Assembly (NCBI RefSeq): GCF_020103725.1
Contig: NZ_JAHXBG010000017.1
Location: forward strand, 62,001-126,000
Direction: 5' to 3'
Source of the DNA: Hyalangium gracile
GTDB taxonomy: Bacteria; Myxococcota; Myxococcia; Myxococcales; Myxococcaceae
Length of the DNA: 64,000 nt
This document shows positions 2,732 to 7,072 of the stretch, piece after piece. The notes beneath the pieces are model-generated. The model had not been told where the DNA came from and searched no databases. It saw only the letters and a list, made by a program, of their open reading frames with translations. Made by a program: the position numbers and the translations under genes. Each line of letters begins with the position of its first letter. The stretch's first letter is position 1.

Positions 2732-3556
2732 TCAGGGCTTGGGGCTCTCGCTGCTCGGGGGCGAGGCGGGCTGCGGAGTCTCCGGGAGTGTGCGGCCGGA
2801 GGCCGTCGACGGCTGCTCCATATAAAGGAGGACGGTCGAGCCGCCCGGGTCCAGGAGGTTCGGCCCCGTGTCCGCCCCCTTGTTCGGGCCCGAGCCCTGG
2901 ATGCCCTCGGGCGGCGTGGCAGCCGCCACCGGCTCTCCGACGGCGAGGAAGCCCGAGGAAGGCAGCTCCTCGAAGTTCTCCGCGGGGACGTCGGCGGCGC
3001 AGTCGATGAACCGGTCCAGCACGTAGACCAGGGCCTTCTGCCGCTGCGTCTTCGAGGCATCCAGCGCGGCCCTGGCGCCCTCTCCCGTGAGCGCCGCCAC
3101 CTTCTGGGCGCGGGCCAGGGTGGCCGGAGGCTCGGAGGAGAGCGTCGTCTGGGTGAGGACCTTGTAGCCCACCACCCAGTGCCGCTCCGCCCGAGCGCGC
3201 CGGGTGAGGATCTCCGCCGGATCATCCAGCGTCTTGGGGGCTCCGGCCGTCAGCGCGCCCACCGCGCCCACCACGGCGGAGGCCCGGCGGGTGCTCGTCT
3301 TGTTGAGGAAGGCCGCGGCGATGCTCCCCGCGGCACCGGCCGAGGCGCCCAGCAGCACCAGCACGTCCGAGAGGTTCAGGGCATTCTGGGCCCGCTCGCG
3401 GTCCCGGTTCAGGCGGTCGACGCAGGTGCGCGCGCTGGACTGGAGCCGCGTGTCGAGCTTCTCCGGGAGGGCGATCTCCGAGGGGCCCACGCTGCGGCAC
3501 CCGGTGGCGCCCGCGCCCAGGGCCGCGAGGAAGAGGAGGTGGCGGACTCGGCTCAT
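2732..3556 (-). CDS. Hypothetical lipoprotein
   Basis: 274 aa with a clear type II signal peptide: basic start, hydrophobic core, lipobox ATGC with the lipidated Cys at residue 20. The middle holds a Gly/Ala-rich hydrophobic stretch (about 65-85) that could be membrane-embedded. The C-terminal third is rich in Pro, Ser and Gly and looks disordered. I recognise no domain. The start codon overlaps the stop of the small upstream gene (ATGA on the minus strand), so the two are probably translationally coupled. It ends 28 bp from the convergent sigma-54 activator. Confidence 0.85.
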   Translation of the reverse strand: MSRVRHLLFLAALGAGATGCRSVGPSEIALPEKLDTRLQSSARTCVDRLNRDRERAQNALNLSDVLVLLGASAGAAGSIAAAFLNKTSTRRASAVVGAVGALTAGAPKTLDDPAEILTRRARAERHWVVGYKVLTQTTLSSEPPATLARAQKVAALTGEGARAALDASKTQRQKALVYVLDRFIDCAADVPAENFEELPSSGFLAVGEPVAAATPPEGIQGSGPNKGADTGPNLLDPGGSTVLLYMEQPSTASGRTLPETPQPASPPSSESPKP

Positions 3557-3801
3557 GGCCCCAGTGTCGCAGATACCTCCGCTCTTAGCGCGTCCATCAG
3601 CGCCTCCAGGTCCGCGTCCGAGGGGAAGGACGCGGGGAAGCGCGCGAGGTTCTCGGCGGGAGGGGCCCAGGGCAGCACGGGGAGGTCTTGCCCCCGGGTG
3701 GCGCTCGCCAGGTAGTCGGCGAGCTGATCCACGAGCTGGTGGCCCTGGCGGCGGAAGCGCTCCGCGTCATAGGCGGCGGCGCGGTCTCGGAAGCTCTGCA
3801 T
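3553..3801 (-). CDS. Small protein resembling the N-terminus of a group II PLP decarboxylase
   Basis: 82 aa starting at the Met of MQSFRDR. Residues about 14-60 (a FRRQGHQLVDQLADYL segment followed by LPVLPWAPP) closely resemble the N-terminal helical arm of aromatic-amino-acid/PLP group II decarboxylases, normally 450-500 aa. The PLP-binding Lys domain is absent and the frame closes cleanly, so this cannot be an active decarboxylase. It overlaps the downstream lipoprotein by 4 bp. It could be a degraded decarboxylase or a small protein retained for another role. No strong Shine-Dalgarno sequence is visible, and a longer in-frame start at 3873 is possible but would add low-complexity sequence. 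Confidence 0.65.
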   Translation of the reverse strand: MQSFRDRAAAYDAERFRRQGHQLVDQLADYLASATRGQDLPVLPWAPPAENLARFPASFPSDADLEALMDALRAEVSATLGP

Positions 3802-3884
3802 GGCGGCGCACCGTAGAACGGGGGGCGCCCGGGGGAACGGATAGGCCGTGAGCCTCGGTCCGCTTCGAGTCATACTGGGGCGGA

Positions 3885-4722: not shown

Positions 4723-4766
4723 ACGGGCGCATCCTGAGCGCGCCCGCCATCTGAAGGAGGGCCGCC

Positions 4767-5003
4767 ATGGCCGACACGAAGATCACCATCACGTACTGCA
4801 ATTCCTGAGGCTACAAGCCTCGAGCCGTCCGTGCGGCGGTTGCATTGAAGGATGAGCTGGAGCTGGATTCGGAGCTGAAGCCGGGACCGTCCGGGAGCTT
4901 CGAAGTCTCGGTGAATGGCAAGACAGTGGTGAAGAAGCAGACGCTCGCATTCCCCACGGAGAAGGAGATCGTGGACGCGGTGTCCCGGGAAATCGGGCGC
5001 TGA
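4767..5003 (+). CDS. SelW-like selenoprotein (Rdx family), TGA read as selenocysteine
   Basis: 78-aa protein read through an in-frame TGA at 4806-4808 (residue 14). The protein begins MADTKITITYCNS, then U, then GYKPRA. This is the CxxU redox motif on a beta-strand/turn typical of the SelT/SelW/SelH thioredoxin-like family. The segment after the TGA continues the family pattern: helix, a GSFEVSVNGK strand, then FPTEKEIVDAV. A strong ribosome site (AAGGAGG) sits 7 nt before the ATG. A SECIS-like hairpin follows the TGA, and a strong hairpin terminator lies 8 nt after the stop. Coding quality is intact on both sides of the TGA, which argues against a pseudogene. Gene callers that treat TGA as stop will miss it. 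Function is probably thiol/selenol redox, with an unknown substrate. It requires selA, selB, selC and selD elsewhere in the genome. Confidence 0.85.
4806..4841 (+). promoter_or_regulatory. Bacterial SECIS-like element
   Basis: It begins at the TGA selenocysteine codon. A 7-bp stem (4823-4829 with 4835-4841, including two G-U pairs) closes a 5-nt loop (4830-4834) whose second base is G. The loop starts 21 nt after the TGA. A small apical loop with an early G at this spacing fits the general rule for SelB-binding bacterial SECIS elements. A separate 6-bp perfect hairpin (4807-4812 with 4816-4821, loop ACA) includes part of the TGA itself. Confidence 0.6.
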
Positions 5004-5011
5004 GCGGGCGT

Positions 5012-5045
5012 GAGGAGAGCCCCTGGCGTCTCGGGGCTCTTCCTC
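5012..5045 (+). terminator. Hairpin terminator after the selenoprotein gene
   Basis: AGAGCCCC (5016-5023) pairs perfectly with GGGGCTCT (5033-5040) across a 9-nt loop. Four more base pairs (5012-5015 with 5042-5045) continue the stem past one bulged T. It starts 8 nt after the stop codon, and a short pyrimidine run follows. This supports a monocistronic unit. Confidence 0.6.
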
Positions 5046-5155: not shown

Positions 5156-5470
5156 ATGGCATGGTGGGACTCGGCGATGGAGCGCCGCTCCATCCAGGCG
5201 GGAATGCGGGTGCGCACGCAGGACGGGAAGCGACTGGGGTGGGTGCTCCTCATCGGCCGGGAGGTGCTGTACGTGCGGCCGTGGCGCTTCTCGCGGCGGG
5301 AGTACGCGGTGCCGCTCTCGCGCGTGACGGGGGTGACGGGCAGGGCCGTCACCGTGACGGGGACGCCCGCCGAGCTGTGCCAGCCCGTGGGAGAGAGATT
5401 GCTCCACGACATCCCCACGCACATCCACCCGCTGGCCGAGGCAGGCCTGAACCGTCAGGCCCACGCCTGA
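5156..5470 (+). CDS. Small PRC-barrel/DUF2171-like protein
   Basis: 104 aa. The segment IQAGMRVRTQDGKRLGWV, followed by alternating strands, resembles PRC-barrel or DUF2171-type small beta-barrel domains that occur in envelope and stress proteins. There is no signal peptide and no membrane segment. A GGAGG ribosome site 6 nt before the ATG supports this start; two later Met codons are possible. The C-terminus is His-rich. I assign no specific function. Confidence 0.75.
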   Translation: MAWWDSAMERRSIQAGMRVRTQDGKRLGWVLLIGREVLYVRPWRFSRREYAVPLSRVTGVTGRAVTVTGTPAELCQPVGERLLHDIPTHIHPLAEAGLNRQAHA

Positions 5471-6439: not shown

Positions 6440-7072
6440 ATGAGCCACCTGGACGACATCCTGCCGGAGCTGCTGCTGGGCACGCTGGACTTGCCTGGCC
6501 GGCAGGAGGCCGAGCGTCACCTGGCCGTGTGCGAGCGGTGTCGAGCCGAGGTGGCCCGGCTGTCGCCCGCGATGGACGGGCTGACGGAGCTGGTGGCGTC
6601 CGAGGAGCCTCCGCCGGGAGTGCTCGCTCGGGTGGTGGGCGAGATGGAGGGCCCCGGGCGCTTCGCGCGCTTCGCCGAGAAGGTGGCGGCGCTGCTGGAT
6701 GTGACGCGGGAGCGGGCGCTGGCGCTGCTGGAGTCGCTGAGCAATCCGGAGGCGTGGCTGCCGGGTCCGGGCGAGGGCATCCTGCTGCTGCCGGTGGAGA
6801 CGGGGCCCGCGAAGCAGGGGATGCTGGCGGCGTTCGTGAAGCTGCCGCCGGGAGTGCGCTTCCCGCGCCACACGCACCACGGGCGCGAGTGGAACCTGGT
6901 GCTCGAGGGCGGGTTCCGCGAGGGCTCGGGGCGGGAGACGTGGCCGGGCGAGCTGCTGGAGATGGACGAGGGCAGCGCGCACGACTTCGTGGCGCTGGAG
7001 GGCCCCGACTGCATCGCCGCCGCCGTCATCGACGGCGTGACGAGCTTCGACGAGGAGCCCCCCGCGAAGTGA
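6440..7072 (+). CDS. ChrR-like anti-sigma factor with zinc-binding site and cupin domain
   Basis: 210 aa. The N-terminus carries the zinc anti-sigma signature H26-x3-C30-x2-C33 in a helical domain. The C-terminal half is a cupin fold with the metal-ligand pattern HTHHGRE and a downstream His. This matches the ChrR family, which holds an ECF sigma factor until singlet oxygen or peroxide triggers release. No ECF sigma gene is adjacent, which is unusual because ChrR is normally next to rpoE. Its partner must be encoded elsewhere, or the protein has another role. There is no transmembrane segment, as expected for a cytosolic sensor. Confidence 0.88.
   Translation: MSHLDDILPELLLGTLDLPGRQEAERHLAVCERCRAEVARLSPAMDGLTELVASEEPPPGVLARVVGEMEGPGRFARFAEKVAALLDVTRERALALLESLSNPEAWLPGPGEGILLLPVETGPAKQGMLAAFVKLPPGVRFPRHTHHGREWNLVLEGGFREGSGRETWPGELLEMDEGSAHDFVALEGPDCIAAAVIDGVTSFDEEPPAK

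Follow-up and report, generated by a model that had tools for sequence, protein, structure and literature searches.

A predicted SelW-like selenoprotein gene with an in-gene SECIS hairpin in the myxobacterium Hyalangium gracile

Introduction

In marine metagenomes, SelW-like selenoproteins rank with the most abundant selenoprotein families (PMC1088965, PMC2398784), and they are also found in Deltaproteobacteria in the older sense of that name (PMC1794560). Genes for selenoproteins are usually misannotated (PMC1088965), and SelW in particular is often missed (PMC4607533). The disulfide potential of MIEN1 has been measured at -225 mV (PMC3527542), and PMC1088965 cites a report that SelW interacts with glutathione. 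Our literature search, which was of partial coverage, returned no paper on SelW or selenoproteins of myxobacteria. Here, we describe a SelW-like locus in Hyalangium gracile. The window is the whole stretch of DNA that was analysed, 64,000 nucleotides in length. An earlier note, made from the letters of the window, had proposed that a short frame with an internal TGA encodes a SelW-like selenoprotein, and we compare this locus with its relatives in 195 genomes of the phylum and with described SelW systems.

Results

The reading frame, the position of its internal TGA, the C-N-S-U motif and the sequence on both sides are all as the earlier note stated, and the strong ribosome site that it described can be read directly upstream of the start codon (Table 1). 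With U for the internal TGA at 4806-4808, the frame translates as MADTKITITYCNSUGYKPRAVRAAVALKDELELDSELKPGPSGSFEVSVNGKTVVKKQTLAFPTEKEIVDAVSREIGR. The gene was also said to have its own terminator, and this holds in part: a strong hairpin follows the stop codon (its folding energy is unremarkable, z -0.8), but it has no T-run, and the terminator scan is negative for that reason. The motif by itself says little. The six frames of the window contain 46 instances of CxxU, four of which have an upstream start and are followed by 50 or more open codons, and the three besides the present one look like off-frame, GC-rich noise. A bare CxxU pattern in GC-rich DNA is weak evidence, and the family match is decisive.

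Table 1. Features of the selW-like locus (positions in the window)
Feature	Position	Strand	Remarks
Shine-Dalgarno-like AAGGAGG	4754..4760	+	6 nt before ATG; read directly from sequence
selW-like gene	4767..5003	+	78 residues; ATG start; TGA stop 5001-5003; in-frame Sec TGA is codon 14
CxxU redox motif C-N-S-U	4797..4808	+	two motif positions are the sole invariant columns of a 49-sequence alignment
UGA read as selenocysteine (predicted)	4806..4808	+	TGA in 98/102 related sequences, Cys codon in the remaining 4
Bacterial SECIS hairpin (predicted)	4823..4841	+	7-bp stem; from fold, covariation, codon bias and synonymous constraint
GC-rich hairpin 3' of stop codon, possible terminator without T-run	5012..5045	+	from fold; not accepted by terminator scan

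The translation matches the Pfam family Rdx (PF10262) at 53.3 bits against a cut-off of 22.6 (E=3e-14) over residues 5-73, and TIGR02174 (CXXU_selWTH) at 50.5 bits against 34.2. The Rdx match thus spans the TGA far beyond chance, as the mention of family-like sequence on either side of the codon had suggested, and a profile search finds no second Rdx match anywhere in the genome (11.7 Mb). The invariant columns of the alignment of relatives are residues 11 and 14, with U written as C. The sequence also matches solved SelW/MIEN1 proteins, of which MIEN1 is the nearest. An AlphaFold model (mean pLDDT 78) has the order strand-helix-strand-strand-strand-helix. In a comparison with the PDB, its top 23 matches among solved structures (E 1e-6 to 2e-4) are without exception SelW-family chains, led by 3DEX, 2OJL, 2OBK, 2FA8, 2OKA, 2P0G, 2LJK and 2NPB, and thioredoxins rank after them. 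Profile score, a CxxC/CxxU motif after the first strand and a thioredoxin-like fold of SelW type therefore all place the protein in the Rdx (SelT-SelW-SelH) family. Given the CxxU motif, the SelW-type matches of the predicted fold and the potential of MIEN1, the protein is most likely a small thiol/selenol oxidoreductase in which Sec would be the attacking residue.

A selenoprotein implies a host with a Sec pathway, as the earlier note had pointed out, and the genome has all four genes, including selB and selC, the two whose absence would speak against the reading. The tRNA-Sec gene (selC), with anticodon TCA, lies in the same assembly, and selA and selD score 577 and 377 bits, respectively. 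SelB is full length (659 residues), with a GTPase domain, a beta-barrel and two winged-helix domains (SelB-wing_2 and SelB-wing_3). The selD gene (G000:C7:46327-47256, L021) likewise has a TGA in frame that is read through (ELSHCAGUAAKL, motif CAGU), so that at least two selenoproteins are predicted in this genome.

The codon at the Sec position was read in 102 fetched sequences, about seven of which are genes counted twice because two collections returned them: 98 have TGA, three TGC, one TGT and none any other codon. As in recognized bacterial selenoprotein genes, the in-frame UGA is thus aligned with Cys or Sec in homologues. Random substitution around the TGA had been named as a sign against the reading; at the position itself only TGA and Cys codons occur, and purifying selection acts on both flanks. 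Against the counterpart in Hyalangium versicolor (L055), dS is 0.32 and dN 0.045 after the TGA, so the part past the "stop" is protein under constraint. The TGA form also extends beyond the phylum: relatives from Chloroflexi, from Acidobacteria and from Bacillus-type records have it as well. These results bear on the idea that the locus is a pseudogene of a Cys-type Rdx protein, made by a TGC-to-TGA mutation and with residual homology that reflects ongoing decay. Cys homologues from which such a gene could derive do occur in the phylum (L025, L027 and a second copy in L103), but TGA is kept at the same codon in 97 phylum genomes and in other phyla, substitution past it is constrained, and the hairpin downstream covaries. 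Conservation of both the TGA and the frame after it already refutes decay, and we regard this explanation as extremely improbable. A separate case is genome G104, where two Rdx genes are neighbours (L103 350-592 and 727-966, both on the minus strand); one has TGA and a SECIS hairpin, and the other has TGC and three of seven stem pairs. The pair is possibly a duplication followed by a Sec-to-Cys change.

As is usual in bacterial selenoprotein genes, a stem-loop with a G in its small apical loop lies 3' of the UGA. Numbered from the U of UGA, nucleotides 18-24 pair with 30-36, leaving a 5-nt loop (nucleotides 25-29, CGUGC, 4830-4834) with its invariant G at 4831; the hairpin begins 14 nt downstream of the UGA. 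In E. coli fdhF, what we take to be the equivalent nucleotides are G23 and U24, closer to the UGA by one codon. The register of the window hairpin is common to most relatives in the phylum, and L029, L031 and L036, from another family, fold a similar hairpin that is slightly shifted. The UGA itself takes part in another hairpin of the window (4806-4822). Many relatives lack such a structure, and we therefore did not count it as part of the SECIS. In the window sequence by itself the hairpin is ordinary relative to synonymous recodings, 12% of which reach seven pairs; its folding z-score is weak, and therefore the argument for a SECIS is comparative. Scanned against Rfam, the locus has chance matches only and matches no SECIS family.

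Covariation was measured in 48 distinct sequences, which leave out the three shifted ones and eight near-identical ones. The stem is paired in 95.8% of cells against 86.7% after shuffling, 26 cells are double-changed against 5.4, compensatory changes occur at five of the seven stem pairs, and slid registers do far worse. When all 59 distinct sequences are used, shifted ones included, 93.2% of cells are paired against 83.5% and 30 are double-changed against 5.1, and none of 500 shuffles is as high. Loop nucleotide 26 is G in 59/59 sequences; at nucleotide 27, 49 have U and 10 have G. Codon choice agrees: of 54 family genes, 44 use CGT and 10 use CGG for the loop Arg, and none uses CGC, against a background of 43% CGC and 7% CGT among Arg codons of nine window genes. 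When the window is compared with 18 relatives, synonymous difference amounts to 0.26 in the SECIS codons, as against 0.49 before them and 0.46 after. Four Cys homologues are not enough to demonstrate that the hairpin was lost in them: two have at most three of seven stem pairs, one has five, and L027 has 7/7; L027, from a genome without selA, would fit a recent change from Sec to Cys.

It could also be supposed that the UGA is a true stop and that a shorter protein is made from a downstream start, such as TTG 4845, where a frame of 52 codons begins. Such a protein would lose the C and U of the motif and the first strand, although the most conserved columns are there; the TGA, and likewise the hairpin located upstream of 4845, would have nothing to maintain them; and the gene co-occurs with Sec machinery. 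We consider a downstream start extremely improbable as well.

That co-occurrence emerges from the phylum survey, in which selA was counted over its cut-off and a strong tRNA-Sec match was one with E at or below 1e-10. Rdx exceeds its cut-off in 99 of the 195 genomes, of which 97 have the form with one internal TGA and two (G015 and G056) have only the Cys form; both of the latter are without selA and without a strong tRNA-Sec match. Of the 97 genomes with the Sec form, 94 have selA, and the total rises to 96 when a strong tRNA-Sec match is accepted in its place. The remaining genome, G142, is a draft that is 87% complete and has neither. The converse does not hold, since 56 phylum genomes with selA are without Sec-SelW, and SelW is therefore not the only selenoprotein. 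Four genomes of the same genus as H. gracile (G095-G098) are without SelW. One of them, G095, has neither a good selA nor a strong tRNA-Sec match either; G096-G098 retain both, with a SelD that has no TGA, so another selenoprotein is probably present there.

Low-level UGA read-through is common in bacteria as a matter of general knowledge, and the UGA might be read by a near-cognate tRNA (e.g., Trp or Cys) with no part for the Sec pathway. This is very improbable: relatives have Cys codons at this position and never Trp or another codon, Cys-only forms occur in genomes without Sec machinery, and the hairpin covaries as a SECIS would.

The proposal of the earlier note, a SelW-like selenoprotein, is thus upheld by the family match across the TGA, the full machinery, the conserved TGA and the covarying SECIS. 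On this sequence evidence, the locus is almost certainly an Rdx-family selW gene whose UGA would be decoded as Sec by SelB with the help of the downstream hairpin. With its C-terminal winged helices, SelB carrying Sec-tRNA-Sec would bind the hairpin (4823-4841) and, so bound, would deliver selenocysteine at the UGA 14 nt to the 5' side.

The surroundings of the gene were also examined. A divergent upstream gene of decarboxylase type is common to many family members and a small downstream gene (5156-5470) to some, and dapD also lies downstream; none of these neighbours suggests a redox partner or functional link. The 106-residue frame upstream, at 3553-3873 on the minus strand, resembles a decarboxylase-type gene (PLP-dependent) that has lost a large internal segment in frame. 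Compared with an intact L056 protein of about 480 residues, its first 80 or so residues match the start and SDADLEALMDALR matches the end, and the L055 counterpart also runs on as a long protein. The remnant has no significant Pfam match, and the decarboxylase name was given by eye. Just past dapD, a gene at 6440-7072 (plus strand) encodes a ChrR-type protein with a putative zinc finger and a cupin domain, possibly a stress-response regulator.

Discussion

A predicted selenoprotein and a complete Sec pathway occur together in a myxobacterium, and SelW occurs as a predicted Sec protein in about half of the sampled phylum genomes. A gene caller that ends frames at TGA would overlook selW. Throughout the phylum, SelW is almost never a Cys protein while the Sec pathway is present, and SelD in the same genomes is often without TGA: among the matches listed, the best SelD match in Sec-SelW genomes has no TGA in 49 and TGA in 46, counts that are uncorrected for kinship. 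In roughly half of the Sec-SelW genomes, then, Sec seems to have been lost from SelD, and SelW seems to keep it more strictly, which we offer as a lead from genome comparison. It is a tentative and rather doubtful extension that SelW of large aerobic myxobacteria needs selenium and is either kept as a Sec protein or lost. If true, SelW would be among the genes on which the persistence of the whole Sec trait in these bacteria depends. Myxobacteria that can be cultured and mutated would offer a practical setting in which to learn the role of bacterial SelW.

Comparison with known systems

Mouse SelW (2NPB) and human MIEN1/C17orf37 (2LJK) have a thioredoxin-like fold with the redox motif in the matching place. 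MIEN1 carries CxxC and the window protein CxxU; the SECIS of eukaryotic SelW lies in the 3'-UTR, unlike the in-gene SECIS here, and the cellular roles of the eukaryotic proteins are not transferable. Epsilonproteobacterial SelW (NF041051, SelTWH_Campy; PMC4607533) has the same position of the Sec motif and a SECIS apical hairpin of 5/6 bp with an invariant G. The window protein differs in scoring 68.2 bits against this Campylobacter SelTWH equivalog, below the curated cut-off of 88, and hence belongs to another subgroup. With the bacterial SelW-like family (PMC1088965, PMC1794560, PMC2398784) it shares size, CxxU motif, Pfam and TIGRFAM membership, an in-gene SECIS with a loop G and co-occurrence with SelA, SelB and tRNA-Sec, with no categorical difference; among the papers retrieved on this family, none mentions a member from myxobacteria. 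SelW-like selenoproteins with a bacterial SECIS have long been known; the selW locus leaves ideas on Sec coding unchanged and adds a member to a known family.
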